Both the position numbers and the translations under genes were made by a program. A DNA stretch of 32,339 nt. Source: Anabaena sp. UHCC 0204 (GTDB lineage: Bacteria; Cyanobacteriota; Cyanobacteriia; Cyanobacteriales; Nostocaceae). Below, piece by piece: positions 7,101-23,673 of the stretch (the stretch's first letter is position 1; each line of letters starts with the position of its first letter). The stretch is taken from the NCBI RefSeq assembly GCF_009711975.1, contig NZ_VIKW01000032.1, positions 1-32,339 on the forward strand, read 5' to 3'. The notes below the pieces were generated by a model. It was not told the DNA's origin, ran no database searches, and saw nothing but the letters and a program-made list of their open reading frames with translations.

Positions 7101-8699
7101 GAAAATACAGTGGAACGTATTCTCGCACTTCAACCTCAACGCGTCCTAGAAATTGGTTGTGGTACAGGTTTAATCTTGTCCAGAGTTGCGCCTCATTGTG
7201 AGCATTACTGTGGTGTAGATATTTCCCAAACGGCTCTACAATATTTACAGCAACTATTAGCAAAACGCCAACCAGAACTATTACCTAAAGTCACTCTTAT
7301 ACAGGGAATAGCAGACCGATTAGAGGGGATAGAAGCAGAATCTGTTGATGTAATCATTCTCAATGAAATCATTCAAAATTTCCCCAGCATTGATTATTTA
7401 GTCAGTGTTCTAGAACGTGCAGTCAAAATCCTGAAACCTAGTGGTTGTATTTTTCTTGGTGGTGTGAGAAGCTTACCACTTTTAGAAGCTTTTCATACAG
7501 GATTACAACTAAATCAAGCTGAAGCCGACCTGACTGTAAGTGAGTTGAGAAAACGAATACAAGATTCTTTAAAAGCAGAAAATGAGCTAGTTATTACTCC
7601 TAATTTCTTCACAACTCTACAACAATATCTGCCGCAAATTGGTGAAGTGCAGATGGAATTGAAAGGAGGTAGTTATCATAACGAACTGACAAAGTTTAAG
7701 TATGATGTAATTCTTCGTCTCGGTTATCAGGTTGAGAACACAAAAAACCAGTCCTGGTTAAATTGGCAGCAGCAAGCATTGACAGTAGAAAGTATTCAAC
7801 AAACTTTACTGATTAATCAACCTAATACCCTAAAAATTGCCAACATTCCTAACGCTCGTGTAGCTGCTGAAATTAAAACCTTGGAGTTACTTGCAACGGC
7901 TGATGAAGCTATTACAGTTGAACAGTTACGAGCAAGTTTGACGCAAATTCCCTCAGAATCTGGTATTGATCCTCAAGATTTTTGCGTCATGGCTGATGCA
8001 CTTGCTTATAAAGTCAAAATTAGTTGGACAGAAAACAGTAATGATGGTTATTACAATGTAGTTTTTTGCCAACAAATTCCCGCATATAATTCAGAACAAA
8101 ACAATCAGGTAATAGTTTTAAATACCCCTGTTACTCCTCAATCTTGGGGTGTTTATGCCAATAAACCATTACAGCAAAAGCAGGAATTAGAATTCATTTC
8201 ACAACTGCGGAGTTTTGCCCAAAGCAAATTACCAGAGTATATGGTTCCGCAATTCTTTGTTACCTTACCAGCTTTTCCTTTAAATCCTAGTGGAAAAATA
8301 GATCGTCAGGTACTACCTGCTCCCGAACAAACTGTTAACAAAAGAGCAGATAAATTTACCTCGCCTCGCACTTCTATTGAAAAAACAATTGCAACAATTT
8401 GGACTCAAATTTTGGGTTTAGAAGCAGTGAGTATTTATGATAACTTTTTTGAAATTGGTGGACATTCCCTACTGTTAATTCAGGTACATAATCAATTAAA
8501 AGAAATCTGTCCTCACACTTTAACAGTAATGGATATGTTTAAATATCCAACCATTAGTGATTTAGCAGAATTTATAACTAGCGACCATACTGATAACCAA
8601 ATATTTAACGATGAGCAAAAAACCATAGATAACCATCAAGTTACTAAAAATAAACAAAAAGAACGTCGTCAAAAAATGCAAAAGATTCGCAATATTTAA
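4152..8699 (+). CDS. NRPS module C-A-NMT-PCP, adds an N-methylated amino acid
   Basis: A 1515-residue single module. C domain at about residues 20-445 (FGQKRLWFLDQ, intact HHTVFDG). A domain from about 475 with YTSGSTGEPKG, NGYGPTE and IRGFRIELGEI (ending near 896). The A domain is interrupted between motifs A8 and A9 by a SAM methyltransferase of about 400 residues with VLEIGCGTG starting at residue 998. The A domain then resumes with LPEYMVPQFFV and SGKIDR. The PCP has FEIGGHSLL with Ser1439. An MT inserted at A8/A9 is the standard N-methyltransferase position, so the amide nitrogen of this residue should be methylated. The specificity residues read D-V-Y-Y-L-G-G-I-C-K, which matches no code I remember, so the amino acid is left open. 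The C terminus is a very basic tail (KQKERRQKMQKIRNI), probably a docking element for the PKS that starts 20 nt later. Confidence 0.95.
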   Translation: MTLKTCQDQNFIDTTEIEVYVFPASFGQKRLWFLDQLEPGSPFYNLPFAVRLQGNLNVSVLEQSFQAIIKRHEALRTALITVDEEPVQAIAPEITFTIPIVNLENLPESEREIQALKIATEEAQSPFILSEYPLMRVKLLRLHEQEHILLLTVHHTVFDGWSIGILLRELAAIYTNYSAGQLSPLPELPLQYADYSVWQQEWLQGEVLEQQLAYWQQQLADISPLQLPTDKPRSALQTYQGDTYSWQIPQDLTNALEGLSKKAGVTMFMTLLAAFNTLLYRYTGHDDIVVGSAIANRNWAESEGIIGLFVNTLALRTQINGNPSFEELLNQVRDITLGAYSHQDLPFEKLVEELQPERNLSNNPFFQVWFALHNLPIPIMQLGDLVLTSIKVKKGTSQFDLSLDISIGEQGLTGSIEYSTELFASATIARMVEHFHTLLYGIVANPQAKLSELPLLSEAEKDKLFEWNNTQNNLIESCSLHDKFEAQVEKTPDAIAVIFAGESLTYRKLNHKANQLANYLQNLGVTAETLVGICMHRSLEMIIGILGILKAGGTYVPLDPIYPVERLGLMLQDAQVPILLTQESLVIQLPKHKAQVVCLDKDWETIDSYNCQYIVHDSSLAYVIYTSGSTGEPKGVCCYHLGVLNLLADFENRQSLTVKDACSLWTSLSFDVSVYEIFSALLFGATLHIVPEEIRADSQAFIHWLHTYKITSAYIPPFMLPVLANWLEEQSEKLELTRLLVGVEPILEQTLITISDRIPGLHIINGYGPTEATICTTLYSVPSQQEYQRYTPIGKPVNNTQIYLLNQHLQPVPIGIPGEIYIGGIGLTKGYLNRPELTSEKFISNPFDQSKSTRLYKTGDIARYLPDGNIEFIGRSDYQVKIRGFRIELGEIESVLRQHPSVQDTVVVTREDIANDKQLVAYLVPQTSKSDNFETEYVSDLQLLYDQFYSWQFSEQDSSINLRVWTSRYTNQTIPEAEIIECVENTVERILALQPQRVLEIGCGTGLILSRVAPHCEHYCGVDISQTALQYLQQLLAKRQPELLPKVTLIQGIADRLEGIEAESVDVIILNEIIQNFPSIDYLVSVLERAVKILKPSGCIFLGGVRSLPLLEAFHTGLQLNQAEADLTVSELRKRIQDSLKAENELVITPNFFTTLQQYLPQIGEVQMELKGGSYHNELTKFKYDVILRLGYQVENTKNQSWLNWQQQALTVESIQQTLLINQPNTLKIANIPNARVAAEIKTLELLATADEAITVEQLRASLTQIPSESGIDPQDFCVMADALAYKVKISWTENSNDGYYNVVFCQQIPAYNSEQNNQVIVLNTPVTPQSWGVYANKPLQQKQELEFISQLRSFAQSKLPEYMVPQFFVTLPAFPLNPSGKIDRQVLPAPEQTVNKRADKFTSPRTSIEKTIATIWTQILGLEAVSIYDNFFEIGGHSLLLIQVHNQLKEICPHTLTVMDMFKYPTISDLAEFITSDHTDNQIFNDEQKTIDNHQVTKNKQKERRQKMQKIRNI

Positions 8700-8719
8700 G
8701 GATATTTAGAGGTAACATA

Positions 8720-11700
8720 ATGACAGACTCAGTAGAAAATTACAACTTTCATGGTTCAGAAATAGCCATTATTGGTATGAGCGGACGTTTTCCCGGAGCT
8801 AAAAATGTTGATGAATTTTGGCAGAATTTAAAAAATGGCAGTTGTTCAATTTCCTCTTTCACCAAAGAAGAATTATTAGCTGCTGGTGTAGATGCTAAAT
8901 TATTGAATAATCCCAATTATGTAAAAGTCGGTGGGATATTAGCTGATGCTGAATTCTTTGATGCTGAATTCTTTGGCTTTAACCCCAAAGAAGCAGAAGT
9001 TACTGATATTCAACATCGCGTTTTTTTAGAATGTGCTTGGGAAGCCTTAGAAAATTCTGGTTACAGTTCTGAGAATTATTCCGGTTTAATAGGAGTTTAT
9101 GCTGGTAGTAACTTAAATGGGTATTTACTTCATATTTATTCCCATCCCGAAATACTTAATTCTGTAAATTCTCAACAAATAACCATCGGTAGTGACAAAG
9201 ATTATTTAACTACAAAAGTTTCCTATAAATTAAATTTAACTGGACCTAGTTATACAATTCAAACAGCTTGTTCCACCTCATTAGTTGCTGTTCATTTAGC
9301 TTGTCAAAGTTTACTATCTGGAGAATGTGATTTAGCTTTAGCTGGTGGAGTTGCTATTAATGCTAAACGTAAACAAGGTTATTTATATAAAGAAGGTGGC
9401 GTTAATTCTCCCGATGGATATTGTCGGGCTTTTGATGCTAAAGCCCAGGGAACTGTAGGAGGTGAAGGTGTAGGTATTGTTGTTTTAAAAAGATTGGAAG
9501 ATGCTTTAAATGACAAAGATACTATTCATGCCATTATTAAAGGTTCTGCCATTAATAATGATGGTGCGAACAAAGTCAGTTACACTGCACCGCGAATTGA
9601 AGGACAAGCAAAAGTAATTAGAACCGCCCAAATAGTCGCGGAAGTAGAACCGGAAACAATTACTTATATAGAAGCACACGGTACAGGTACATCTTTAGGT
9701 GATCCTATTGAAATAGCAGCCTTAACTCAAGCTTTTCCAGCAAGTACAGAGAAAAAAGAATTTTGTGCTGTAGCTTCCGTCAAAACCAATATTGGACATT
9801 TAGACGCAGCCGCAGGAATAGCAGGTTTAATCAAAACTGTTTTAGCTCTCAAGCACAAACAAATACCGCCTAGTCTGCACTTTGAAAAACCAAATCCGCA
9901 CATTGACTTTAACAATAGTCCTTTTTATGTCAATACTGTTCTCAAAGACTGGGAAGTTAACGGTATTCCCCGTCGCGCCGGTGTCAGTTCCTTTGGTATT
10001 GGTGGCACTAATGCCCATATAATTTTAGAAGAAGCTCCCCCCGTAGAAACCGTTACATCTGCTCGCAACTGGCAACTTTTGATACTTTCAGCTAAAACCC
10101 CCACAGCCTTAGAAACAGCTACCGCAAATTTAGCAATTCATTTACAACAAAACCCACATTTAAATCTAAATGATGTTGCTTATACACTACAGATAGGACG
10201 TAAAATATTTGACTATCGGCGGCTGTTAGTTTGCCAAAATTCTGAGCAAGCAGTCCAGTTATTAACATCAAAAAAAGGGGTATTAACCCATCATCAAAAG
10301 TCCTGTAAGCCTTCGGTAGTGTTCATGTTTCCCGGTCAGGGAGCGCAGTATGTCAACATGGCCGCGGAACTTTATCAAACAGAATCCGTATTTGCTAACC
10401 ATATTAACCGATGTGCTGAATTGCTAAAACCCCATTTAGGCTTAGATATACGTGAAGTTATTTATCTAACAGATAGCAAAGTAGTATCACGGTTAAATGA
10501 AACAGCTTTAACTCAGCCAGCATTATTTGTCATTGAATACGCCTTAGCGCAACTATGGATGAGTTGGGGCGTGCATCCAGAAGCCATGATAGGTAACAGT
10601 ATTGGTGAATACGTTGCAGCTACCCTCGCTGACGTTTTCTCCTTATCCGATGCTTTGATGCTGGTAGCACATCGAGGAAAACTCATGCAGCAGTTACCGA
10701 AAGGGGCGATGCTTTCCGTAGCAATACCAGCTTCCAATGTAAAAAATTTATTAGGAGATGGACTTTCTCTAGCTGTGAATAACGCTCCTTCTGCCTGTGT
10801 AGTAGCGGGTACAAATTCAGCAATTGCAGAGTTACAAGCAAAGTTACAAGCACGAGGAATAAATTGCCGACTATTGCATACTTCCCATGCGTTCCATTCT
10901 TCGATGATGGAAGCTATCATTAATCCATTTATTGAACTGTTAGCAAAAGTTACTTTTAATCCTCCCCAAATTCCTTTTATTTCTAATGTTACTGGCACAT
11001 GGATTACTACAGAACAAGTCACAGATCCTCATTATTGGGCTAAACATTTACGGCAAACTGTCTTATTTAATGAAGGCATAATTGAGTTAATTAAACAACC
11101 ACAAAGAATTTTATTGGAGGTTGGACCAGGAAGAACTTTGAGTAGTTTGGTAAAGCAACATCAAAACCAGGAAATAGTTACTTTAACTTCCGTCAGTCAT
11201 CCTCAAGAAACACAGTCAGATGTTGCTTTTATTCTCACTACTTTAGGTAGACTTTGGCTATTAGGAGTTAAAATTAATTGGTCTGGTTTTTATGGACAAG
11301 AACAACGTTTTCATATTCCTTTACCTACCTATCCTTTTGAACGCAAACCCTATTTAATTTCACTCAATAAACAGACTGGAATTCCAGTTAATAATGAGGA
11401 AAAATTAGATATTTCTAAATGGTTTTATACTCCCACTTGGAAACAGTCTTTACCAGTTATAATTTCTCAATTGGGTACAAAGAATTCCTGTTATTTAGTA
11501 TTTGCTGATGATTGTCAAATAGGTTCAGCAATAGTCAAGCAGCTAGAGTTAGAAAATCAAAATCCTATTAGTGTATTGGTAGGTGAGCAGTTTGCCAAAA
11601 TCGGTACAAACGCTTATACAATTAATCCCCAAAATCCAGAAGATTATCATGCGTTAATTGTTGATCTTCGATATCAGAATTTAATTCCCGATTGTATTTT

Positions 11701-13360
11701 CCATTGTTGGAGTATTACACCCAATGCTAACCTGAAAAAAGGTAGTGAGTTTTTTAACAGATGTCAAGAGTTAGGTTTTTATAGTCTGTTGTTCCTAACT
11801 CAAGCTCTTGATAAACAGCTTATTAATCAGCCTCTGAAACTCATCACTGTTACCAACAATTTACATGATGTTACAGGGAATGAAAAATTAGCTCCTGAGA
11901 AATCCACAATTTTAGCTGCCTCTCAAGTAATTCCCCAGGAATATATTAATATTAGTTGTCAAAATATTGATATATTAATTAGTGATTCAGATAATCAAAT
12001 TGATGCTAGAATAATAGATAAATTACTAGCAGAAATAACAAGTAATAGCACAGATTTAATAGTTGCTTATCGTGGTCATCATCGCTGGGTAAAAACCTTT
12101 GAATCTGTGAATATAGCTGAAGCTGAAAATAAAATCAGTCCATTAAGACAAGAAGGTATTTATTTAATTACTGGTGGACTGGGTGGAGTTGGTTTAGTTG
12201 TAGCAGAATATTTAGCGAAGACAGTAAAAGCCAAACTAATTTTAATCAGTCGTTCTGGTTTACCAGACAAAAATTTATGGTTACAATGGTTAGACAACCA
12301 TGATCAAGAAGATAGTATTAGCTGCAAAATTCGGCAATTACAAGCATTAGAGAAACTTGGTGCTGAAGTTTTGGTGATTAGTGCTGATGTGGCTGATGAA
12401 GGGCAAATGCGGCAGGCGATCGCACAAGCTACTCAACATTTTGGAAAAATTAATGGTGTTATTCATTGTGCAGGAGATTTACAAAAATCCATTTTTCAAC
12501 CAATACAAGCAACAACTATTAACCAATGCCAAAAACATTTTCAAGCTAAAGTAAATGGCACTTATGTATTAACAAAACTTTTCCAAAATCACCAACTAGA
12601 TTTTTGTATCTTCACCTCATCTCTAGCTGCTATCTTAGGAGGGTTAAACTTTGCAGCCTACTCAGCAGCTAATATATTTATAGATGCCTTTGTCCACCAA
12701 CAAAACCAAATTAGTAACGTTACTTGGAGTAGTATTAACTGGGATGGTTGGCAATTTTCCCCCACTACAGAAACAACTAATAGTATCACCACCACAGAGG
12801 GACAAGAGGCTTTTGATACAATTTTCAAACTCAATCATATTCCCCAAATTTTAGTTTCTACCACCGACTTAAATCTACGCATCTATAAATGGTTAGAACT
12901 GCAAAATATTAAATCTCAATCAACTCAAGAAAATAATTCTCTAGGAAAATACTCTAGACCAAACTTACTTAATGCCTATATTCAGCCTCAAACTGAAATT
13001 GAACAGATTATCACTAATATCTGGCAACAGATTTTAGGTATTAATCAAATTGGCATTCATGATAACTTTTTTGAATTAGGTGGACATTCACTATTAGCTA
13101 CTCAACTTATTGCCCACCTGCGCCAAAAATTACAAATTGAAATTCCCTTACAACAAATATTTGCTAGTTCTACCATTGCTGAACAAGCTGCGGAAATTGA
13201 AAGCATCAAATCTCAAATATCTAACCTGAAAATTGACACAATTACCAAAATAAATAGAGAAAATGCCCCTGATATTTCTGTAGCCATTGATAAATTTACA
13301 GATGCAGAAATTGATTTACTTCTCAAACAATTAGCAACCTTAAATTATGTGCAGTTATGA
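8720..13360 (+). CDS. Type I PKS module KS-AT-KR-ACP
   Basis: A 1546-residue single module that extends the peptidyl chain by two carbons. KS at about residues 10-440: TACSTS with catalytic Cys184, EAHGTGT and KTNIGHLDAA. AT at about 525-840: FPGQGAQY, the active site GNSIGEY with Ser627, and HAFH at 723-726, the motif typical of malonyl-CoA specificity. The usual GHS is GNS here. KR: a structural subdomain from about 895 (WFYTPTWKQS) and a catalytic half with ITGGLGGVG near 1150, SSLAA and YSAAN. It should therefore reduce the beta-ketone to a hydroxyl. There is no DH, ER or C-methyltransferase. ACP at about 1430-1500 (FELGGHSLL). The C-terminal tail FTDAEIDLLLKQL looks like a docking motif. 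The stop codon overlaps the next start (ATGA). Confidence 0.95.
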   Translation: MTDSVENYNFHGSEIAIIGMSGRFPGAKNVDEFWQNLKNGSCSISSFTKEELLAAGVDAKLLNNPNYVKVGGILADAEFFDAEFFGFNPKEAEVTDIQHRVFLECAWEALENSGYSSENYSGLIGVYAGSNLNGYLLHIYSHPEILNSVNSQQITIGSDKDYLTTKVSYKLNLTGPSYTIQTACSTSLVAVHLACQSLLSGECDLALAGGVAINAKRKQGYLYKEGGVNSPDGYCRAFDAKAQGTVGGEGVGIVVLKRLEDALNDKDTIHAIIKGSAINNDGANKVSYTAPRIEGQAKVIRTAQIVAEVEPETITYIEAHGTGTSLGDPIEIAALTQAFPASTEKKEFCAVASVKTNIGHLDAAAGIAGLIKTVLALKHKQIPPSLHFEKPNPHIDFNNSPFYVNTVLKDWEVNGIPRRAGVSSFGIGGTNAHIILEEAPPVETVTSARNWQLLILSAKTPTALETATANLAIHLQQNPHLNLNDVAYTLQIGRKIFDYRRLLVCQNSEQAVQLLTSKKGVLTHHQKSCKPSVVFMFPGQGAQYVNMAAELYQTESVFANHINRCAELLKPHLGLDIREVIYLTDSKVVSRLNETALTQPALFVIEYALAQLWMSWGVHPEAMIGNSIGEYVAATLADVFSLSDALMLVAHRGKLMQQLPKGAMLSVAIPASNVKNLLGDGLSLAVNNAPSACVVAGTNSAIAELQAKLQARGINCRLLHTSHAFHSSMMEAIINPFIELLAKVTFNPPQIPFISNVTGTWITTEQVTDPHYWAKHLRQTVLFNEGIIELIKQPQRILLEVGPGRTLSSLVKQHQNQEIVTLTSVSHPQETQSDVAFILTTLGRLWLLGVKINWSGFYGQEQRFHIPLPTYPFERKPYLISLNKQTGIPVNNEEKLDISKWFYTPTWKQSLPVIISQLGTKNSCYLVFADDCQIGSAIVKQLELENQNPISVLVGEQFAKIGTNAYTINPQNPEDYHALIVDLRYQNLIPDCIFHCWSITPNANLKKGSEFFNRCQELGFYSLLFLTQALDKQLINQPLKLITVTNNLHDVTGNEKLAPEKSTILAASQVIPQEYINISCQNIDILISDSDNQIDARIIDKLLAEITSNSTDLIVAYRGHHRWVKTFESVNIAEAENKISPLRQEGIYLITGGLGGVGLVVAEYLAKTVKAKLILISRSGLPDKNLWLQWLDNHDQEDSISCKIRQLQALEKLGAEVLVISADVADEGQMRQAIAQATQHFGKINGVIHCAGDLQKSIFQPIQATTINQCQKHFQAKVNGTYVLTKLFQNHQLDFCIFTSSLAAILGGLNFAAYSAANIFIDAFVHQQNQISNVTWSSINWDGWQFSPTTETTNSITTTEGQEAFDTIFKLNHIPQILVSTTDLNLRIYKWLELQNIKSQSTQENNSLGKYSRPNLLNAYIQPQTEIEQIITNIWQQILGINQIGIHDNFFELGGHSLLATQLIAHLRQKLQIEIPLQQIFASSTIAEQAAEIESIKSQISNLKIDTITKINRENAPDISVAIDKFTDAEIDLLLKQLATLNYVQL

Positions 13361-14868
13361 ACACAACCTTTAATGAAATATCCCAACTTAATCCAGCAGA
13401 AAAACGCGAAATATTAGCCCAAATATTGGAAAACCAAGCTATTAAACCTCAGTATTTCCCTTTATCCTTTGCTCAACAAAGACTGTGGTTTGTAGAACAA
13501 ATACAACCAGGAAATTCTAGTTATAACATTCTGTTAGCTATCCGGTTACAAGGAGCGTTAAATGTAACCTACCTAGAAAAAAGGTTTCAAGAAATAATTT
13601 CACGTCATGAAATATTACGAACTAGCTTTATTGCTGTCAAAGGTGAACCTCAGCAAGTTATTTACCCTCATTTACCGCTAAAATTAGTAGTTTTCGATAT
13701 TCAAGAACTACCCGCATCAGCACAAGAACAAGAAATCACAAACTTAGTTTTTCAAGAGTCACAACAACCTTTTGATTTAACTCAAATTCCTTTATTGCGA
13801 GTGAAAATTTTACAACTCAATCCTCAAGAATTTGTATTAGTTTTGACTATGCACCATATTATTACTGATGCTTGGTCAATAGAAATATTTGTGAAAGAAT
13901 TAATTACACTTTATCAAGGATTTTCTGATCAGCAACCTGCAAATCTACCAGAATTACCAATTCAGTATGCAGACTTTGCTGTTTGGCAAAGAAAGCATTT
14001 GACAGGGAAAGTATTAGAAAATCACTTGAATTATTGGCAAAAACAACTAGCTAATAATTTACCAGAATTAAAACTACCAACTGACTATCCACGTCCAGAA
14101 ATACCTACTTATCAAGGAGCAAAAAAGACTTTAGTAATTAGTCAAGATTTTACTGAAAAAATTAAAAAGGTCAGCCTTCAGTTAGGCAGTACCATATTTA
14201 TGACGCTGTTAGCAGCATTTGAAATTTTATTACATTATTATAGCCATCAAGAAGAAATTGTTGTGGGCATTGATGTAGCCAATCGTAATAGAGCCGAAAC
14301 TGAAAGATTAATTGGCTTTTTTGTCAATCAATTAGTATTACGAATATCTGTAGCTGAAAATCCAACTTTTCAGGAATTATTACAACGGGTAAAGTCAGTT
14401 ACTTTAGATGCTTTCTCTCACCAAGATTTACCTTTTGATTTACTTGTCAATACTTTTAACCCCAAACGTAGCCTCAATACTTCTCCATTTTTTCAAGTAA
14501 AAGTAGTTCTAGAGACTATTCATTCTTCATCTTTGGATTTTCCAGAATTAACAATTAATCCTATTGCAAATCCTAGTATTCAAACTCAACTAGATTTACT
14601 GTTGAGAATAAAAGAAACAACCCAAGGGATCATTACTAATTTAGAGTACAGTACAGATTTATTTGCTGAAGCTACTATTACCAGAATGATGAATAATTGG
14701 CAAGAAATTTTAAATCAAGTCGTTGGCAAACCTGATTTAAAATTAGCAACATTAATAAATGAGTTAAAAACAGCCGATTTACAACAAGATAAACAAAACA
14801 AAGTCAAGCACCAACAAGAATTTCAGCAAAAACTTAAAATAGTCAAACGAAAAATTAGCACTAATTAA
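13357..14868 (+). CDS. Stand-alone NRPS condensation domain protein
   Basis: A 503-residue protein with one C domain and no A or PCP domain. Residues 1-30 form a short helical docking-like segment (ISQLNPAEKREILAQIL). The C domain follows: SFAQQRLWFVEQ, RHEILRTSF, the active-site motif HHIITDA (His166-His167, Asp171, with the usual Gly replaced by Ala172) and IGFFVNQL. Both histidines are kept, so it may be catalytic. It lies between the PKS, whose stop it overlaps by 4 nt, and a hydroxylase gene. The downstream NRPS module has a C domain without the catalytic histidines. I infer that this protein supplies the missing condensation activity in trans, joining the PKS-bound chain to the Asn-loaded carrier. 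The alternative is that it is the non-catalytic interface domain that recruits the hydroxylase. Confidence 0.9.
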   Translation: MNTTFNEISQLNPAEKREILAQILENQAIKPQYFPLSFAQQRLWFVEQIQPGNSSYNILLAIRLQGALNVTYLEKRFQEIISRHEILRTSFIAVKGEPQQVIYPHLPLKLVVFDIQELPASAQEQEITNLVFQESQQPFDLTQIPLLRVKILQLNPQEFVLVLTMHHIITDAWSIEIFVKELITLYQGFSDQQPANLPELPIQYADFAVWQRKHLTGKVLENHLNYWQKQLANNLPELKLPTDYPRPEIPTYQGAKKTLVISQDFTEKIKKVSLQLGSTIFMTLLAAFEILLHYYSHQEEIVVGIDVANRNRAETERLIGFFVNQLVLRISVAENPTFQELLQRVKSVTLDAFSHQDLPFDLLVNTFNPKRSLNTSPFFQVKVVLETIHSSSLDFPELTINPIANPSIQTQLDLLLRIKETTQGIITNLEYSTDLFAEATITRMMNNWQEILNQVVGKPDLKLATLINELKTADLQQDKQNKVKHQQEFQQKLKIVKRKISTN

Positions 14869-14884
14869 TACCAATATATAAACC

Positions 14885-15913
14885 ATGAAAAAACTAGAAA
14901 TAAAAAATCTCCAGCGTCGAGTTGTAAATTCACAATTACAAGCATTAATCACGACGGAAACTTTTAATCATAGTGAAAGTCTACCTTTAGTGATTAAACC
15001 AATAGTTGATCACATTGACTTACCAGATTGGTTAATTGTCAATCAGGATTTTATTCATAAGCAACTACTCAAATATGGTGCTATTCTCTTTCGTGGCTTC
15101 AATATTGATACACCATCTGCATTTGAGAAATTTGGTTTAGCTATTTGTCAAGAACTTTTCCACGAAAATGGCGAACATCCCCGCGAAACAGTCAGCGGAA
15201 AAGTTTACACTCCAGTATTTTATCCGGCTGATAGAAAACTGTTATGGCATAATGAAAACTCTTTTAATCATCAATTTCCCTTAAAAATTATGTTTGGTTG
15301 TCGGCAACCAGCACAGCAGGGAGGAGAAACACCAATTGTTGATAGTCGTCAAGTTTTTCAATTAATAGATCCGAAAATTCGTGATATATTTATTGAGAAA
15401 CAAGTTATGTATGTTCGCAATTATGGTGATGGATTAGGGTTAGATTGGCAAACAGTATTTCAAACCCAAAATCAGGCAGAAGTTGAAAAAAGATTCTCGC
15501 AAAATGCGATCAAATTTGAATGGAAATCAGAAAATCGTCTGCGGACTCTTTCTATTCGTCCGGCTGTAATTAAATATCCTCAAACCAGAGAATTATCTTG
15601 GTTTAATCAAGCTCAACATTGGCATCCTGCTTGTTTAGATCCGATAACTAGAGAAACACTATTTGCATCTTTTAAACCAGAAGATTTACCCAGAAACTGT
15701 TACTACGGTGATGGTACTCCCATTGAAGATTCAATCATGGAAGAAATTTGTGGAGTTTATCAACAATTAGAAGTAACTTTTCCTTGGGAGAAAGGAGATG
15801 TTTTACTACTTGATAATATTTTAGCAGCCCACGCTAGAAACCCCTTTATGGGTGAAAGAAAATTATTAGTAGCTATGGGTGAAATGACAAATTATACACA
15901 AATTGGATATTAA
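14885..15913 (+). CDS. SyrP/TauD-family Fe(II)/2-oxoglutarate beta-hydroxylase
   Basis: A 342-residue protein of the TauD/TfdA fold, closest in motif pattern to the SyrP-type hydroxylases that act on carrier-bound amino acids. Iron ligands are visible as WHNE (His122, Glu124) and a distal His316 in AAHARNPF; Arg325 in GERKLLV is the likely 2-oxoglutarate anchor. Other family signatures are LFRGF, PAQQGGETPIVDSR, WFNQ and WEKGDVLLLDN. The ligand set is HxE...H rather than the HxD of TauD itself, as in Asp/Asn hydroxylases of peptide pathways. The gene sits directly before the module with an Asn-type code, so the expected reaction is beta-hydroxylation of Asn, probably while it is bound to the PCP. 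It could instead act on another tethered residue or on free Asn, as AsnO does. No clear ribosome binding site precedes the ATG. Confidence 0.92.
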   Translation: MKKLEIKNLQRRVVNSQLQALITTETFNHSESLPLVIKPIVDHIDLPDWLIVNQDFIHKQLLKYGAILFRGFNIDTPSAFEKFGLAICQELFHENGEHPRETVSGKVYTPVFYPADRKLLWHNENSFNHQFPLKIMFGCRQPAQQGGETPIVDSRQVFQLIDPKIRDIFIEKQVMYVRNYGDGLGLDWQTVFQTQNQAEVEKRFSQNAIKFEWKSENRLRTLSIRPAVIKYPQTRELSWFNQAQHWHPACLDPITRETLFASFKPEDLPRNCYYGDGTPIEDSIMEEICGVYQQLEVTFPWEKGDVLLLDNILAAHARNPFMGERKLLVAMGEMTNYTQIGY

Positions 15914-15926
15914 GGATAGTTAAAAA

Positions 15927-18900
15927 ATGCTTAGTCAAATTCAAGGTTTTCAACTTTCACCACAACAACAACATTTGTGGAAATTCCAGCAAGACAGTTC
16001 TATTTATCGGGCTTTAGGTGCAGTTCTTATTGAGGGGAATTTACAAATTGATGTATTTAAACAAGCCCTGCAAAAAGTTGTAGATAGAAATGAAATACTC
16101 CGTACTCGCTTTTATCGTTCCCAAGGAATTAAAATTCCTAGTCAGGTAATAAATAGTAGCAATGCTTTCTTATTTACAGAGGATGAATTTCTAGAAAATC
16201 ACAATTTAGATCAAGTAATAGACGAATTATTAATTGAAGAAAAAAATCAGCCTTGCGACTTAGAATCAGGCTACTTATTTTCTACAAAATTAGTCAAAAC
16301 CGACAATAATCAATATATTTTATTCCTGAGTTTACCGTCTTTATGTGCCGATATCAAGACTTTAAATAATTTAGTTGCAGAAATCAGTAGTTGCTATACT
16401 GCCATTTTAAAAGGTGATGATTTTTTAGATGAACCTTTACAATATGCTGATATTGCAGCATGGCTAAATGAATTATTAGCAGCAGAAGAAACAAATTTAG
16501 GGAGAAAGTATTGGCAAAAAATAGATATTTCTACAAATAGAAACTGCCAACTTATTCATGAAAAGTACCCACATGAAACAGCGAAATTTCAACCGCAGCT
16601 TATCAAATTAATAATTGATGAGAAATTAGTGATTCAGATAAAAGAAGTTGCTAATAAATATCAAACTACAACTTCTGTATTTCTATTAAGTTGTTGGTTA
16701 ATTCTCCTATGGCGTTTAACTGGTAATTCTGACTTAATTATTGGTACTTACTTTGATGGACGCAATTATGATGAATTAAAATCTAGCTTAGGTTTGTTTG
16801 CTAAATATTTACCTCTAGCTTGTAATCTAGAAGATGAAAAATGCTTTTATGATGTATTGAATCTAGTTAAAGAACTTACTAGCGAAATGTCAGATCATCA
16901 GGAAAGTTTTGATTGGGAAACTGCTGTAAATAACCAGAAGCAAGAAATTGAAAAACCATTCTTCTCCTTATGTTTTGAGTTTATAGAAACACCAGAAAAG
17001 CATATATTTGGGGAAATATCACTGTCACTTTATCAGCATTGTGTTTATTTAGAACCTTTTGAAATTAAACTTTCTGGTGTTTGCAGCATTGATGAAAAGC
17101 TCAAACTTGAATTTCACTATGATAGTAGCTTATTCACACAAGCCAATATAGAAAATATTGCTGATCAATTTGCAACTTTGTTAGCGAGTGTAGTTGAAAA
17201 TCCTCAATTAAATATTTCACGTCTCGATCTTCTTTCACAATCAGAAAAACAGCACCTTTTAATTAAATTTAATCATACCAAAACGCCAGAATTACCATAT
17301 AATTGTATTCATGATTGGTTTGCAGTTCAATGTCAGCAGACACCAGATAATATTGCAGTTATTTATGAAAATCAAAAACTCACCTATCAAGAATTAAATA
17401 ACAGTGCTAATCAACTAGCACATTATTTACAAAGTTTAGGAGTAGGGACAGAAACCCTGATCGGAATATGTATAGAACGTTCTCCTTTAATGGTGATTGC
17501 TGTTTTAGGAATTCTCAAAGTTGGTGCAGCTTATGTACCCATTGACCCCAATTATCCCCCAGAAAGAAAAGCGTTTATTTTGGCAGATACACAAATGCCA
17601 TTATTGCTAACTCAAGCCAGTTTAGCAGCAGATTTACAGACAAATAATATTACAACTATTTGTTTAGATAATGATTGGTATATTATCAACCAACAACCGC
17701 AAAACAACCCAATTCATAACACTAATAGTCATAATCTTGCTTATGTAATTTATACTTCTGGTTCTACTGGTAAACCCAAGGGAACGTTAATTTCTCATTC
17801 GGGTTTAGTTAATTATTTGCATTGGTGTACAAAGACATATAAAGTTGATCAAGGTTCTGGAACTTTGGTACATTCTTCTTTAGGATTTGACTTAACTATT
17901 ACCAGTTTATTTTCTCCTTTGGTGGTAGGTAGTCAAATAGAATTATTACCAGAAAATCAAAACATAGAAAATCTAGCGCAAACTCTCATTCAAAGAAATA
18001 ATTTAAGCTTAGTTAAAATTACTCCTGCTCATTTAGAATTACTCAGTCAACAATTATCAAATCAGGAAGTAGCAAGTCGGACTAATGCTTTTATTATTGG
18101 TGGGGAAAATCTAAGCACACAACATATTAATTTTTGGCGAAAGTTTGCCCCAAAAACAATTTTAATTAATGAATATGGTCCGACAGAAACTGTTGTTGGT
18201 TGCTGCATTTATCAAGTATCACAACAAGATAGTTATTTAGTAGGTTCTATTCCTATTGGTTATCCCATTGCTAATACCCAACTTTATGTTTTAGACCAAT
18301 ATTTACAACCAGTCCCAAAAGGAGTAATAGGTGAATTATATATTGGTGGTGCGGGACTAGCGCGGGGTTATCTCAACCAACCAGAATTAACAGCCCAAAA
18401 GTTTATTCCCCATCCTTTTAGTAATAAACCGGGAGCGCGTTTATATAAAACGGGTGATCAAGTGCGTTTCCGAATTGATGGAAATTTAGAATTTTTGGGA
18501 CGCTTGGATGATCAAGTTAAATTGCGGGGTTTCCGCATCGAATTAGGAGAAATTGAATCTTTACTTTCCTTGCATCCCACTGTTCAAGATGCAGTGGTAA
18601 TGGTAAGAGAAGATGTAGCTGGAGATCAACGTTTAATTGCTTATTTGGTTGTTAAACCAGACTATTCTTTATCTATTTCTAATTTGCGGAGTTTCTTGCA
18701 AGAAAGACTGCCAGAATACATGATACCTACGGCTTTTATACCTTTAGAAAAGTTACCTTTAACAAGTAATGGAAAAGTAAATAAAAAGATACTTCCTGCA
18801 CCAGAACAGCTAAATTCGGAAGTAAAAGAATCTTTTATTGCTCCTCGTAATTCTCTTGAAGAACAGTTAGCAAATATTTGGGCAGAAGTGCTGAGAATAG

Positions 18901-19160
18901 ATAAAGTTGGTATTTACAATAACTTTTTTAGCTTAGGTGGGCATTCCCTATTAGTGACACAGTTGATATCTCGAATGCGTGATGATATTGGTGTGGAATT
19001 AGTGATACAGGATGTTTTTAATTATCCCACTGTAGCTGATTTAGCCGTGATTGTCACCCAAAAATTAGCCCAAGATATAGATGAAGACATTTTAGCGCGA
19101 TCGCTTGCAGAATTAGAAGAATTATCTAACGCAGATATCCAATTAATTAACCAAGGTTAA
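15927..19160 (+). CDS. NRPS module: degenerate C - A(Asn) - PCP
   Basis: A 1077-residue module. Residues 1-420 have the C-domain fold (LSPQQQHLW, RNEILRTRF, YADIAAW, SLGLFAKYLPL), but the HHxxxDG position reads LPSLCAD (136-142). Both histidines are gone, so normal condensation chemistry is not expected. The A domain spans about 440-960 (YTSGSTGKPKG, NEYGPTE, YKTGD, NGKVNK). Its specificity residues read D-L-T-K-I-G-E-V-G-K, one conservative change from the published Asn code; Glu at the seventh position favours Asn over Asp. The PCP has FSLGGHSLL with Ser1007. The tail SNADIQLINQG resembles the end of the PKS. Unlike the stand-alone C protein and the next NRPS, the N terminus has no docking helix. 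RBS-like AAGGAT lies 9 nt before the ATG. The C-like domain may be an interface for the hydroxylase encoded just upstream. Confidence 0.94.
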   Translation: MLSQIQGFQLSPQQQHLWKFQQDSSIYRALGAVLIEGNLQIDVFKQALQKVVDRNEILRTRFYRSQGIKIPSQVINSSNAFLFTEDEFLENHNLDQVIDELLIEEKNQPCDLESGYLFSTKLVKTDNNQYILFLSLPSLCADIKTLNNLVAEISSCYTAILKGDDFLDEPLQYADIAAWLNELLAAEETNLGRKYWQKIDISTNRNCQLIHEKYPHETAKFQPQLIKLIIDEKLVIQIKEVANKYQTTTSVFLLSCWLILLWRLTGNSDLIIGTYFDGRNYDELKSSLGLFAKYLPLACNLEDEKCFYDVLNLVKELTSEMSDHQESFDWETAVNNQKQEIEKPFFSLCFEFIETPEKHIFGEISLSLYQHCVYLEPFEIKLSGVCSIDEKLKLEFHYDSSLFTQANIENIADQFATLLASVVENPQLNISRLDLLSQSEKQHLLIKFNHTKTPELPYNCIHDWFAVQCQQTPDNIAVIYENQKLTYQELNNSANQLAHYLQSLGVGTETLIGICIERSPLMVIAVLGILKVGAAYVPIDPNYPPERKAFILADTQMPLLLTQASLAADLQTNNITTICLDNDWYIINQQPQNNPIHNTNSHNLAYVIYTSGSTGKPKGTLISHSGLVNYLHWCTKTYKVDQGSGTLVHSSLGFDLTITSLFSPLVVGSQIELLPENQNIENLAQTLIQRNNLSLVKITPAHLELLSQQLSNQEVASRTNAFIIGGENLSTQHINFWRKFAPKTILINEYGPTETVVGCCIYQVSQQDSYLVGSIPIGYPIANTQLYVLDQYLQPVPKGVIGELYIGGAGLARGYLNQPELTAQKFIPHPFSNKPGARLYKTGDQVRFRIDGNLEFLGRLDDQVKLRGFRIELGEIESLLSLHPTVQDAVVMVREDVAGDQRLIAYLVVKPDYSLSISNLRSFLQERLPEYMIPTAFIPLEKLPLTSNGKVNKKILPAPEQLNSEVKESFIAPRNSLEEQLANIWAEVLRIDKVGIYNNFFSLGGHSLLVTQLISRMRDDIGVELVIQDVFNYPTVADLAVIVTQKLAQDIDEDILARSLAELEELSNADIQLINQG

Positions 19161-19167
19161 AAATTAG

Positions 19168-22100
19168 ATGAGTAACCTACTACAAAAAATTGTAGAACTT
19201 TCTCCCGAAAAACGTCAACTACTGTTACAAAAACTTAATCAACAAAAAGGAAAAGCTGCACCCGCTAAAATTCAACCCCAACGTCGAGATACTCAGACAT
19301 TTTCTTTATCTTTTGCCCAACAAAGGTTATGGTTCTTTAGCCAATTAGAACCAGAAAGCAGTGCTTATAATATTCCTGCTGCTATCCAATTAACAGGAAA
19401 CTTGAATGTATTAGCCCTAGAGAATAGCATTAATCAAATAGTGCATCGTCATCACATATTACGCACTAACTTTAAAGTTATAAACGGCGAACCAGTCCAG
19501 GTAATTCGAGCAGAAACGAATCTACAAATACCAATAATTGACTTACAAAATATTCCTGAAAACACAAGAGAAACAGAAGCTATTCGTTTAGCTAAACTCG
19601 AAGCAGAAAAACCCTTTAACCTAGAAAAAGATTCTCTACTACGGGTTAATTTATTACGTCTTGGTGAAACAAATCATGTGATTTTATTCACCATGCACCA
19701 CATCATTTCTGATGGTTGGTCAACAGGAATACTGATCCGGGAATTGACAACATTTTATAAAGCGTTTGATAGTAACCAAAAATGCAATTTACCTGAATTA
19801 CCTATTCAATATATAGATTTTGCAGTTTGGCAACGTCAATATTTACAAGGAGACATTTTACAAACTCAATTAAACTACTGGAAACAACAGTTAAGTGGTA
19901 ATTTACCCATATTAGAATTACCTACAGACCGTCCACGTCCAGCAATTCAAACTGACAGAGGTACAAGCCAATCTTTTACCCTTTTTCCATCCTTAACAGC
20001 AGCATTAAAAAATCTTTCCCAGCAGGAAGAAGTTACTTTATTTATGATCTTGCTGGCAGCATTTAAAGTTTTATTGTATCGTTATACTCAACAGGAAGAT
20101 ATTTTAGTAGGTACTCCTATTGCTAACCGCAACCGTTCGGAAATAGAAGGATTAATTGGTTTTTTTATTAATACTCTAGTTATCAGAAGTGACTTAGAAG
20201 GAAATCCTACTTTTCAACAACTCTTAACCCAAATTAAAAAAACAACCTTAGCAGCTTATAATCATCAAGATTTGCCCTTTGAACAATTAGTAGAAGAACT
20301 ACAACCAGAAAGAGATTTAAGTCATAGTTCTCTATTTCAAGTCATGTTTATTCTGCAAAATGCACCCACAGAAGTTTTACATTTACCAGATTTAACTCTC
20401 AAATCTTTGCAAGTAGAAAAGAAAACAGCAAACTTTGATTTAACTCTCTCAATGGTAGAAACAGAAACAGGACTAAGAGGTTCATTAGAATATAATACTG
20501 ATTTATTTGATGATGATAGAATTACCCGAATGTTGGCACATTTTCAAACATTATTAGCGGAGATTGTGCTTTATCCTCAACAAAATATTTCTGAATTATC
20601 CCTATTAACAACATCAGAACGGCAGCAAATTCTTCTGGCTGGAAATCATCATCAAATTTCTATTCCTCAACAGTGCATTCATCAACTATTTGAAGCACAA
20701 GTAACTAAAAATCCTGATGCAATAGCAGTAGTTTTTGAGGAAAAAATACTAACTTATCGAGAACTTAACCAACGTGCTAACCAACTAGCAAATTACTTAC
20801 AAAAACAAGGAGTTAAACCAGAAGTTTTAGTAGGAATTTGTTTGGAACGTTCTTTAGAATTAGTTGTAGCAGTGCTGGGAATTCTCAAAGCAGGTGGAGC
20901 ATATCTACCAATTGATCCAGCATATCCCCAAGAGCGGTTAACATATATGTTAACAGATGCTCAAGTATCAATTATTCTCACCCAAAAACAACTATTAGCA
21001 GTTTTACCAAGTGAAAATATACAAACTATTTGTATTGATTATGATTGGCAAAAAATTACTAACAAATCTCTAGAAAATCCTGTAAGTCAGGTAAATATAA
21101 ATCATCTTGCTTATGTGATTTATACCTCTGGTTCTACAGGTAAATCCAAAGGAGTCATGATTGAACATCGCAGTTTAGTAAATGCTTATTTTGCTTGGGA
21201 AGAAGCTTATAAATTAACAGCCATTACCGCACATTTACAAATGGCTAGTTTTTCCTTTGATGTTTTCTCAGGTGACTTAGTTCGCGCTCTTTGTTCTGGT
21301 GCTAAATTAGTAATTTCTCCCCGTCAACTACTACTAGAACCTAAGAAACTTTATCAATTAATGCTGCAAGAAAAAGTAGAATGTGCAGAATTTGTTCCGG
21401 GAGTATTAAGAAACTTAATCCAATATCTAGAACAAACTCAACAACGTCTTGATTTTCTAAAATTACTAATTTGTGGTTCTGATAGTTGGTATATTCAAGA
21501 ATATGATAAATTCTGTCAATATTGCAGTGATAAAACTAGATTAATTAATTCCTTTGGCTTAACAGAAGCAACTATTGATAGTACCTATTTTGAAACAGAA
21601 ACAACTAATTTATCTCCAGTAGCTAAAGATAAATTAGTACCTATAGGAAAACCTTTCACTAATACCCAAATTTATATTTTAGACCAATATTTACAACCTT
21701 TACCTGTAGGTATTTCCGGTGAAATCTATATTGGTGGTGCTGGTTTAGCAAGGGGTTATTTACATAAACCAGAATTAACAGCCAGTAAATTTATACCGAA
21801 TCATTTTTGTGAAGAAACAGGAAGTTTTTTATATAAAACAGGTGATTTAGGACGCTGGCTTCAAGATGGAAATATTGAATTGATTGGTCGACTTGATAAC
21901 CAAGTTAAATTAAGAGGTTTCCGTATTGAATTAGGTGAAATTGAAGCCATACTTAGTAAACACTCAATAGTAAAAGAAGCTGTTGTTATCGTTAGAGAAG
22001 ATCACCCTAAACAGCAACAATTAGTTGCTTATATTGTGTCAGCATTGGCAGATTTTAATCATATCAATTCCAGCACATTTCAGGAATTTTTAAAACAGCA

Positions 22101-23673
22101 GTTACCCAACTACATGATACCTTCTGCTTTTGTGATTCTGGAATCTTTTCCCCTGACACCTAACGGTAAAATTGATCGTCGTGCTTTACCTAAGCCTGAA
22201 TATCAAGAACTACAAACAGCTTTCGTTGCACCTCAAAATCAGACAGAATTAACATTAGCGCAAATTTGGGCTGAAATTCTGAAAGTGGAAAAAGTGGGTA
22301 TTAATGATAATTTCTTTGAACTAGGAGGAAATTCTTTATTAACAACTAAATTAATGCTCAAAATTCGGTCAACTTTGCAAATAGATTTTCCTTTGCGTCT
22401 TCTATTTGAATCACCCACTATTGCGAGTTTGGCAGTTTATTTAGATAAAATTATCAAATCCGAATCTATTGATACATTGATTCCAGAAAATTTGATAGAT
22501 TGGGATCAAGAAACTATTTTGGACTCGCAAATTTACCCATTAAATACTTATCAAAAATCTGCAAAACCACCTCAAGCTATATTATTAACAGGTGCTACCG
22601 GGTTTTTAGGTGCTTTTTTACTGTGGGAACTTTTACAACAAACTCAAGCTGATATTTATTGCTTGGTTAGAGCTAGAGATATAGTATCAGCTAAAAAGAA
22701 AATACAAAAAACCCTAGATTCTTATTTAATTGGAAATGAGAGTTTTTACCAGAGAATTATTCCGGTAATTGGAGATTTATCTCAACCCTATTTAGGACTT
22801 AATAAAAATGAGTTTCAAGATTTAGCTAATCAAGTTGATGTCATTTATCATAATGGTGCTTGGGTAAATCATATTTATCCTTATTCTGTTCTCAAACCTG
22901 CTAATGTTTTAGGTACACAAGAAATATTAAAATTAGCTTGTTTAGGCAAAACAAAACCAGTTCATTTTGTTTCGACTACGAGTATTTTTTCTCAATCAAG
23001 CATTTCTGGAATTCAGGTAATCACTGAAGCAGATAACAGTGATACTTATCCAGTCAAAACTAATGGTTATGTACAAACTAAATGGGTGAGTGAGAAATTA
23101 TTAGACGCTGCTAAAAATAGAGGTATTCCTATTAGTATTTATAGAATAGGTCGTGTTTCTGGACATAGCCAAACGGGAGTTTTTAATATTAATGACTTGC
23201 TATATAAATTAATCATTGGCTGTATTCAACTTGGTACTGTCCCAAATCGGGATATTCAGGAAGATATTATGCCTGTTGATTATGTTAGTAAAGCCATAGT
23301 TTATCTATCAACACAGGAGAAATCTTTGGATAAAGCCTTTCATTTATTCAACAATCAAGTTGTGCATACAGATAATTTATTGAGGGTAATTCACTCCTAT
23401 GGCTATCAAGTGAAACAAGTTCCATATCAAGATTGGCGATCGCAATTAATTAATGTTGTTGGAGATTTGCCAGAACATCCTTTATATCCACTCATCCCAT
23501 TGTTTTCAGCTAAAACTTCTCAAGGTAAATCGGAGAAATCAGATACTTTACGGTTTGATTCTCAAAATGTAATTACTGGACTTGCTGATTCTTCTATTAT
23601 CTGTCCAGATATTGATGATCAATTACTAAATACTTACATTTCCTATTTAGCTAAACAGGGATTTATTCACTGA
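19168..23673 (+). CDS. NRPS termination module C-A(Orn)-PCP-R with reductive release
   Basis: A 1501-residue module. A short N-terminal helix (IVELSPEKRQLLLQKL) resembles that of the stand-alone C protein. C domain at about 42-480 with SFAQQRLWFFSQ and intact HHIISDG. A domain at about 500-1020 with YTSGSTGKSKG and an unusual NSFGLTE in place of NxYGPTE. The specificity residues read D-V-G-E-I-G-S-I-D-K, identical to the code I recall for ornithine in gramicidin S and bacitracin synthetases. PCP FELGGNSLL with Ser1056 (GGNS instead of GGHS). Residues about 1125-1500 are a thioester reductase of the extended SDR type: LLTGATGFLG near 1140 for NAD(P)H, and Tyr1301/Lys1305 in YVQTK. It should release the chain as an aldehyde, or as an alcohol after a second reduction. 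No thioesterase is present. This is the last module. Confidence 0.95.
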   Translation: MSNLLQKIVELSPEKRQLLLQKLNQQKGKAAPAKIQPQRRDTQTFSLSFAQQRLWFFSQLEPESSAYNIPAAIQLTGNLNVLALENSINQIVHRHHILRTNFKVINGEPVQVIRAETNLQIPIIDLQNIPENTRETEAIRLAKLEAEKPFNLEKDSLLRVNLLRLGETNHVILFTMHHIISDGWSTGILIRELTTFYKAFDSNQKCNLPELPIQYIDFAVWQRQYLQGDILQTQLNYWKQQLSGNLPILELPTDRPRPAIQTDRGTSQSFTLFPSLTAALKNLSQQEEVTLFMILLAAFKVLLYRYTQQEDILVGTPIANRNRSEIEGLIGFFINTLVIRSDLEGNPTFQQLLTQIKKTTLAAYNHQDLPFEQLVEELQPERDLSHSSLFQVMFILQNAPTEVLHLPDLTLKSLQVEKKTANFDLTLSMVETETGLRGSLEYNTDLFDDDRITRMLAHFQTLLAEIVLYPQQNISELSLLTTSERQQILLAGNHHQISIPQQCIHQLFEAQVTKNPDAIAVVFEEKILTYRELNQRANQLANYLQKQGVKPEVLVGICLERSLELVVAVLGILKAGGAYLPIDPAYPQERLTYMLTDAQVSIILTQKQLLAVLPSENIQTICIDYDWQKITNKSLENPVSQVNINHLAYVIYTSGSTGKSKGVMIEHRSLVNAYFAWEEAYKLTAITAHLQMASFSFDVFSGDLVRALCSGAKLVISPRQLLLEPKKLYQLMLQEKVECAEFVPGVLRNLIQYLEQTQQRLDFLKLLICGSDSWYIQEYDKFCQYCSDKTRLINSFGLTEATIDSTYFETETTNLSPVAKDKLVPIGKPFTNTQIYILDQYLQPLPVGISGEIYIGGAGLARGYLHKPELTASKFIPNHFCEETGSFLYKTGDLGRWLQDGNIELIGRLDNQVKLRGFRIELGEIEAILSKHSIVKEAVVIVREDHPKQQQLVAYIVSALADFNHINSSTFQEFLKQQLPNYMIPSAFVILESFPLTPNGKIDRRALPKPEYQELQTAFVAPQNQTELTLAQIWAEILKVEKVGINDNFFELGGNSLLTTKLMLKIRSTLQIDFPLRLLFESPTIASLAVYLDKIIKSESIDTLIPENLIDWDQETILDSQIYPLNTYQKSAKPPQAILLTGATGFLGAFLLWELLQQTQADIYCLVRARDIVSAKKKIQKTLDSYLIGNESFYQRIIPVIGDLSQPYLGLNKNEFQDLANQVDVIYHNGAWVNHIYPYSVLKPANVLGTQEILKLACLGKTKPVHFVSTTSIFSQSSISGIQVITEADNSDTYPVKTNGYVQTKWVSEKLLDAAKNRGIPISIYRIGRVSGHSQTGVFNINDLLYKLIIGCIQLGTVPNRDIQEDIMPVDYVSKAIVYLSTQEKSLDKAFHLFNNQVVHTDNLLRVIHSYGYQVKQVPYQDWRSQLINVVGDLPEHPLYPLIPLFSAKTSQGKSEKSDTLRFDSQNVITGLADSSIICPDIDDQLLNTYISYLAKQGFIH

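Follow-up and report, generated by a model that had tools for sequence, protein, structure and literature searches.

The locus described here raises the question of how a chain is extended at a nonribosomal peptide synthetase (NRPS) module whose own condensation (C) domain has lost its active-site motif, and what that domain does instead. It lies in a 32,339-nucleotide stretch of Anabaena sp. UHCC 0204 (contig NZ_VIKW01000032.1), the whole of which is called the window below, and in which a polyketide synthase (PKS) module is followed by a free C protein, a stand-alone hydroxylase, and an NRPS protein that begins with a C-like domain, here termed C*. The answer best supported by our analysis, and one that we consider likely, is that C* is an interface-type domain carrying a docked hydroxylase and that condensation is performed in trans by the free C protein. 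The adenylation (A) domain of the NRPS would load Asn onto its own peptidyl carrier protein (PCP) domain, and the hydroxylase, docked on the noncondensing C*, would hydroxylate the PCP-bound Asn at the beta carbon. The free C, which is of the LCL type, would then join the PKS-bound chain to hydroxyasparaginyl-PCP in trans, and the following C-A-PCP-reductase (R) protein would continue the chain. In functional terms, the C protein would belong to the donor side, with the hydroxylase, C*, A, and PCP making up an acceptor cassette. The docking and the order of the steps, as well as the substrate and the product, we infer from sequence.

Open frames and Pfam domains confirm the three genes that an earlier sequence-only reading of the window had described, all on the forward strand and tightly packed. 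The ATG of the free C gene (13357-14868; 503 aa; Pfam Condensation, 370 bits) overlaps the stop codon of a KS-AT-KR-ACP PKS module (8720-13360, + strand), which Pfam domains and gene order point to as the probable chain donor. Gaps of 16 and 13 bases, respectively, separate the C gene from the hydroxylase gene (14885-15913; 342 aa; TauD, 150 bits) and the hydroxylase gene from that of the C*-A(Asn)-PCP protein (15927-19160; 1077 aa; Condensation, 225 bits, plus AMP-binding and PP-binding). The alignment bears out both motifs named in that reading: HHxxxDG appears as HHIITDA in the free C (13852-13872, with H166 and H167, in the segment LTMHHIITDAWSI) and is replaced by LPSLCAD in the N-terminal C* (domain 15939-17276; motif 16332-16352, residues 136-142, in the segment LSLPSLCADIKTL). 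Loss of the catalytic His of HHxxxDG is a feature of interface domains, with which LPSLCAD is consistent, and C* is also a member of the C superfamily that adjoins both an Fe/alpha-ketoglutarate (alpha-KG) beta-hydroxylase and an A-PCP. The hydroxylase itself is a SyrP-like Fe(II)/alpha-KG enzyme of the TauD family with an HxE...H plus Arg signature (H122, E124, H316, and R325), each residue of which is found in 131 of 131 hydroxylases preceding such a C-like domain. The A domain (17319-18791) has the code DLTKIGEVGK, its pocket positions having been placed by hand with GrsA motifs, and we take it to be of the Asn type from the Asn code DLTKLGEVGK, one letter apart. The section on Asp and Asn in PMC12283262 names DLTKIGEVGK itself, as a code that also fits beta-cyano-alanine. 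The PCP that follows (18861-19046) carries GGHSL, not GGDSI.

The sequence-only reading had held that the LPSLCAD domain should not condense and had called for phylogenetic placement of both C domains. This was carried out with a quick method on 92 rows: 32 of 141 C-like domains following a hydroxylase, 20 of 141 upstream C domains, 12 of 121 LCL and 10 of 45 DCL domains, 8 of 50 epimerization (E) domains, 9 of 25 other HH-less domains, and 1 Cy domain. The LCL rows were labelled from motif and score; as interface references, we took domains from the cyanochelin B cluster and from proteobacterial clusters whose hydroxylases are fused, to which we give the name "interface" on account of their position. 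All 32 sampled post-hydroxylase C-like domains and 7 other HH-less domains form one clade of 39 rows (97 in the Shimodaira-Hasegawa-like approximate likelihood ratio test, SH-aLRT), and C* is placed there together with both cyanochelin B C-like domains and those of Variovorax (L093) and Azospirillum (L099), that is, among domains adjoining Fe/alpha-KG hydroxylases and apart from catalytic C domains. All 8 E domains fall outside this clade, next to the Cy row. Most DCL domains (8 of 10) are likewise apart from it, in a clade (support 99) that they share with the C upstream of the cyanochelin B stand-alone hydroxylase. The free C of the window is inside an LCL clade (97; 29 rows) that comprises 12 of 12 LCL and 17 of 20 upstream C domains, where it groups with 16 other upstream C domains (96); with its intact HHxxxD, it is an LCL domain by both motif and placement. 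In the numbering of the free C, the C-like clade has lost H166, H167, N324, and R329, each kept in 30 of 30 compared C domains, and has residues of its own, with G7, W257, P296, and F328 each present in 30 of 30 and Pro at the first His position in 27 of 30 sampled. Five pairwise comparisons gave dN/dS values of 0.25-0.40 for the C-like domain of the window, indicating purifying selection. A condensation domain in simple decay was rejected as a description of C* on account of its own clade, this selection, and its clade-specific conserved residues. The matches in a PDB search were C-domain synthetases, and no chain among them was named as an interface domain.

How general this arrangement is was assessed from two sides. 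A hydroxylase search of 386 genomes of the phylum at E 1e-30 gave matches in 28, and domain order was read around these matches and around plasmid and genome-contig loci; a second scan started from C-like domains, and of its 532 matches the best 80 (76 loci) were used, which leaves divergent members under-sampled. Outside the window, domains were assigned by small profiles made from the window's own domains, and near-duplicates, judged by the 5-mers in common, were removed (above 85 or 90% for hydroxylases and above 90% for C-like domains). Counted from the hydroxylase side, the next C-like domain lacks HH for 129 of 147 distinct hydroxylases and keeps it for 2, both proteobacterial (Azospirillum L091 and Janthinobacterium L092), where it opens the next NRPS; for the other 16, the domain is cut or was not seen. 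This count does not select for HH loss, and the HH-less state of the next domain is therefore not a matter of chance. Of those 129 hydroxylases, 117 have an intact C upstream; for the remainder, the upstream feature is a C whose motif is unreadable (2), a methyltransferase (2), or the edge of the locus (8). All 129 HH-less domains retain the Asp of HHxxxD. The count from the other side rests on 153 distinct C-like domains, drawn from the second scan together with the loci already at hand from the hydroxylase search and filtered on the motif (no HHxxxD/E, Asp present, limited letters at the first His, and score >190, with three proteobacterial loci exempt), so that within it the loss of His and the retention of Asp are there by construction. 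A hydroxylase lies just upstream in 139 of the 153, with a methyltransferase or aminotransferase between in 7. The upstream order is C / hydroxylase in 73, a fused C-hydroxylase in 46, a hydroxylase whose own upstream is cut in 11, and methyltransferase / hydroxylase / C-like in 2; the hydroxylase is reached past a methyltransferase in 6 and past an aminotransferase in 1, and the rest have C alone (8), an edge (3), or something else (3). In 0 of 153 was a profile-detected upstream domain on the same polypeptide as the C-like domain.

It is clear from these counts that the split layout is the rule in this family and not unique to the window; as a peculiarity of the window it was rejected on both the hydroxylase-based and the C-like-based figures. 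The idea of a rare split form, and the earlier suggestion that such a form is undescribed, have to be dropped, as the cyanochelin B cluster (AP017310.1) shows the same order and 73 separate and 46 fused cases occur among the 153, while the core of that proposal, an interface-type C* served by a condensing C in trans, is retained on the strength of the clade placement, the intact upstream C in 117 of 129, and the co-divergence outside the fused subset described below. In a literature search that left most subscription papers outside it, a free C partner for an interface domain was not found described, and a term search of the main texts of PMC12628792 and of the eLife mining paper PMC12971057, the source of the CyanoBH_Asp1/2 pHMMs, returned no word beginning with "interface". 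In Deltaproteobacteria/Binatus metagenome-assembled genomes (MAGs; L158, L161, and L169, around 8390-17200), a PKS, a free C, and a C*-A with the code DARHCGVIDK occur with no hydroxylase detected in the genome. The genome G389 has hydroxylase pieces (C352:14390-15387; L183 and L187), one of them with internal stop codons and possibly a pseudogene; in its L143 cluster, C and C* stand together without an intervening hydroxylase.

The proposed division into a donor-facing C and an acceptor cassette is also consistent with how the parts diverge. Distances were compared over 96 modules in which each of the four parts is nearly complete and which had been chosen for a C just upstream, so that an intact C in 96 of 96 speaks to its motif alone. 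Hydroxylase distances correlate with those of the C-like domain (r 0.615), the A domain (0.445), and C (0.219), and where the hydroxylase is separate (n=66) the partial correlations amount to 0.475 for hydroxylase and C-like domain, 0.309 for C and C-like domain, and 0.017 for C and hydroxylase, an order that is kept after thinning below 70% identity (n=33; 0.419, 0.303, and 0.113). The divergence of the hydroxylase thus tracks that of C* and not that of C, except in fused C-hydroxylase modules. In Trichormus sp. NMC-1 (L101) and the same-genus genome G402 (L202), the hydroxylase is 92-93% and the C-like domain 84-86% identical to those of the window at the amino acid level, and the A domain of L101 is 93% identical, while their C is only 54-55% identical to the free C and is fused to an NRPS donor. 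In steps of 100 bases, DNA identity to these two is 47-79% in the C gene, 79-80% at 14900-14999, and 90-98% in the rest of the hydroxylase gene, which places the borders of the exchange near the junction of C and hydroxylase. Against Nostoc sp. NIES-3756 and L103, most identity values lie at 0.74-0.97 for C and hydroxylase and at 0.53-0.83 for the C-like domain, a drop at the hydroxylase/C-like border that may reflect either exchange or faster change. Over 87 modules, the C tree requires 10 changes of donor type, the C-like tree 16, and the hydroxylase tree 15, against shuffled means of about 25, and C is on a polypeptide separate from its donor in 19 of 21 PKS-donor modules versus 14 of 66 NRPS-donor modules. 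These patterns fit a C that would act as the donor-facing condensing enzyme in front of a putative acceptor cassette of hydroxylase and C*-A-PCP.

A short basic tail with the consensus ...QQKLKNIKRKAISS... closes most of the C domains found before a separate hydroxylase. In the free C it reads QQKLKIVKRKIS (14824-14859, + strand), and it is conserved in C domains acting across to the next protein. A profile built from 37 tails, half of the set, recovered 32 of the 37 held-out tails at a limit of E 0.01. It also matched 6 of 7 tails of C domains whose next neighbor is a C-like domain, with no hydroxylase in between, 15 of 54 linkers joining C to hydroxylase in fused proteins, 1 of 25 in a low-scoring E group, and, among 12 other C tails, three: that of L070 and, close to locus edges, those of L051 and L128. 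At the same limit, there was no match among 92 thiolation (T)-to-C tails, 46 T-to-KS tails, 106 C-A linkers, or 116 hydroxylase tails. As a control, 40 further NRPS regions yielded 12 C or E domains at the end of a protein. Seven had a C score >130 (one a 333-aa fragment), and the tail was present in 1 of these 7 C domains, that of L202, which stands before a hydroxylase; among the earlier loci, it was found in 0 of 3 C tails directly facing an A domain and 0 of 3 facing an aminotransferase. Specificity for hydroxylase neighbors is ruled out by the six tails that face a C-like domain directly, and specificity for C-like domains by L070, which has the tail and a hydroxylase and no C-like domain. 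The tail may serve in docking.

Several findings weigh against hydroxylase docking on C* with condensation in trans as a complete account. Some hydroxylases have no adjoining C-like domain (L070, in the order C / hydroxylase / A, and L072 and L073), 8 of the 153 C-like domains directly follow a C with no hydroxylase beside them, and no hydroxylase was found at E 1e-15 in 4 of 11 genomes checked (L125, L158, L161, and L169, all MAGs by their titles). In the 30 fused C-hydroxylase modules, the hydroxylase follows the A domain (r 0.821), C (0.579; partial 0.73), and the C-like domain (0.68; partial 0.13), and the lead of the C-like domain over C is gone (276 of 500 subsamples). The C-like domain is also less constrained than the hydroxylase (dN/dS 0.05-0.17) and the A domain (0.07-0.18). 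The four genomes would be expected if C* were mainly a landing platform for the trans-acting C, via the basic tail, and for A-PCP, with the hydroxylase a frequent guest; this alternative, which we regard as unlikely, could also draw on the position of the C-like domains at the start of their protein with no detected domain before them, on the tails that face a C-like domain directly, and on the partial correlation of C with the C-like domain among separate hydroxylases. That correlation is nevertheless exceeded by the one between hydroxylase and C-like domain, the tail also stands before a hydroxylase without a C-like domain in L070, at a lax E of 1 the profile matches 7 of 46 T-to-KS tails, so that the tail may serve general docking, and the genomes in question, being MAGs, may be incomplete.

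The relaxed constraint and the hydroxylases that do without a C-like domain would also suit a relic, an inactive condensation domain kept as a structural spacer for A. We consider this quite improbable, as the lost residues are replaced by conserved ones particular to the clade (Pro at the first His, W257, and P296), a single C-like clade spans phyla, and the C-like domain co-diverges with the hydroxylase. That C* itself condenses in a noncanonical way, leaving another job to the free C, is extremely improbable in our view; the Pfam score of C* and the Asp kept in every HH-less domain that follows a hydroxylase speak for it. Against it, HH is absent in 129 of 131 readable post-hydroxylase domains, and 117 of these 129 modules have an intact C upstream, another 8 lying at a locus edge. 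A further alternative places hydroxylation before loading. AsnO hydroxylates free L-Asn, and an enzyme of this kind could supply hydroxyasparagine to the A domain. PMC7524897, where an alpha-KG oxygenase for L-Asn is named in connection with a daptomycin-like peptide, is in keeping with such a route. We nonetheless hold it to be very improbable here, given that the A code reads plain Asn, that the hydroxylase is usually fixed beside the C-like domain and co-diverges with it, and that its relatives sit in siderophore clusters, some of them fused to the assembly line.

A tentative extension of the interface reading, which we put forward as possible and somewhat doubtful, is that the dead C domain is a two-sided adaptor that would receive both the hydroxylase and the trans-acting C, the latter through the basic tail (consensus QQKLKNIKRKAIS), so that donor-specific C proteins could be exchanged before one cassette; in some lineages, C would dock without a detectable hydroxylase. 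The lineages in question are the Binatus/Deltaproteobacteria MAGs and the cyanobacterium UBA8803. This rival is kept alive by the C-like domains without a hydroxylase and the hydroxylases without a C-like domain. If the interface-type model with condensation in trans is true, a hydroxylated residue could be moved as a cassette, comprising hydroxylase and interface-A-PCP, behind any suitable donor by swapping the C protein alone, and nature seems to have made such a swap at the C/hydroxylase border. Interface domains have so far been tied to beta-hydroxy-Asp and His, and the model, if true, would widen them to Asn. The C tail, for its part, gives a concrete handle on how a C domain works across polypeptides. 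New here are the Asn-linked stand-alone hydroxylase lineage, the natural swap of C, the C tail, and C* in four genomes without a detected hydroxylase.

The surrounding genes place this unit within a larger assembly line, in the order A-PCP-C-A-PCP (cut at the window start) / C-A-MT-PCP / KS-AT-KR-ACP / C / hydroxylase / C*-A-PCP / C-A-PCP-R / aminotransferase / methyltransferase, with an acylase gene following on the opposite strand. The C-A-PCP-R protein (19168-23673, +) has an intact C (FTMHHIISDGWST) and, from its Pfam domains and position, a reductive release, and the class III aminotransferase (23723-25147, +; Pfam) probably acts on the released aldehyde. An S-adenosylmethionine (SAM) methyltransferase (25198-25959, +; Pfam) is followed by the penicillin-acylase family protein (26524-28653, -), which shares 75% identity with the acylase annotated next to the cluster of Nostoc sp. 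NIES-3756, scores 241 bits with the NCBIfam PvdQ model, under that model's cut-off of 950, and may deacylate the product. The cluster is cut inside an A domain at the window start (window 1-4133 region). Contig C20 of the same genome, which holds two further close hydroxylases, a separate one and one joined to a C, breaks off inside an A domain as well, after the fused C-hydroxylase and C*. As the one ends and the other begins inside an A domain, C20 and the window probably adjoin, and the full cluster probably holds three hydroxylases; contig C37 adds two weak partial hydroxylase matches. The product is likely a siderophore-like peptide, since the NIES-3756 cluster, of the same core order, sits among TonB receptor, ferric reductase, and siderophore ABC genes.

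Two hydroxylase trees were made, a quick tree of 142 of 165 hydroxylases and a bootstrap tree of 60 of those 142. The latter places the window enzyme in an Asn-linked stand-alone clade of 12 rows (100/100). The fused Asp hydroxylases, including that of cyanochelin B and three proteobacterial ones, form a separate clade (100/100), and the other 32 rows, including the cyanochelin B stand-alone enzyme, split off together (100/99). The quick tree, which includes distant rows, places the 12-row clade beside the fused one (98) with a weak root, and among the matches listed in the phylum search, the best two by score outside the 12-row clade are fused enzymes at 54-55% identity. Asn codes occur with other hydroxylase lineages too, so that the use of Asn is not confined to this clade. 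By its sequence relationships, the clade is a distinct and new lineage of Asn-linked stand-alone enzymes. Filing the window hydroxylase as either I-beta-H or T-beta-H was rejected, as the defining features fail: it is encoded by a gene of its own (342 aa), not attached at an NRPS C-terminus, and lies outside the fused Asp clade, and its module pairs a GGHSL rather than a GGDSI carrier with an interface-type domain. A PDB search at E 1e-5 returned two TauD-like sequences only as relatives. PMC12628792 quotes a rule by which fused hydroxylases give S and stand-alone ones R products. By this rule, the window enzyme would give R; given that its lineage branches beside the fused one, however, S appears at least as likely, and the "fused 3S, stand-alone 3R" rule may fail for it.

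Comparison with known systems sets these features in context. Interface domains were reportedly described by Reitz et al. in 2019 together with I-beta-H_Asp hydroxylases, the domain being said to place the hydroxylase and the carrier-bound amino acid. The window resembles those systems in having a C-superfamily domain before A-PCP and next to an Fe/alpha-KG hydroxylase and differs from them in its separate hydroxylase gene, its Asn residue, its free C after a PKS, and its own hydroxylase lineage. With the T-beta-H_Asp systems, which are not known to have an interface domain, it shares a stand-alone hydroxylase for an NRPS-incorporated residue, while its GGHSL carrier and its interface-type domain set it apart. 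The Reitz et al. work is cited in PMC12230676 and PMC12628792, and PMC10391617 describes the T-beta-H_Asp arrangement as a stand-alone hydroxylase with an A domain and then a so-called TE domain with the GGDSI motif.

Other A codes occur behind the same kind of domain. The C / hydroxylase / C* layout recurs with C*-A modules of the code DSALVGEVWK, presumably a His-like code (L042, L043, L045, L047, L049, and others). Some C*-A modules have an A domain that lacks Asp235 (code SSRDSSMGIK; L039:10179, which is on C20 of the window's own genome, L122:11390, L136:1652, L146:2314, and L217 after 12412), a code that suggests a substrate other than an alpha-amino acid, and at three loci (L139:7987-9897, L164:8064-9926, and L176:8090-9949) a gene resembling asparagine synthetase B, judged by eye from its N-terminus, stands just before the C*-A protein.

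The cyanochelin B cluster (ccs; AP017310.1) has both layouts in one place, a fused C-hydroxylase / C*-A(Asp)-PCP (CcsFGH / CcsI) and a separate C / hydroxylase / C*-A(Asp)-PCP-E (CcsK / CcsL), these names having been matched to the domain table in this analysis, except for CcsL. According to PMC12628792, cyanochelin B carries two beta-hydroxy-Asp residues. Its cluster shares a terminal reductase with that of the window and differs from it in using Asp instead of Asn, in having no free C after a PKS, and in the placement of CcsK in another stand-alone lineage. The nearest annotated cluster that we found, on the plasmid pNOS3756_1 of Nostoc sp. NIES-3756, has an aldo/keto reductase after the R module where the window has the aminotransferase. 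It otherwise follows the window in the order PKS / free C / hydroxylase / C*-A(DLTKIGEVGK)-PCP / C-A-PCP-R, with a hydroxylase 86% identical to that of the window and annotated neighbors that comprise a TonB receptor, a ferric iron reductase, siderophore ABC transport, and an acylase.

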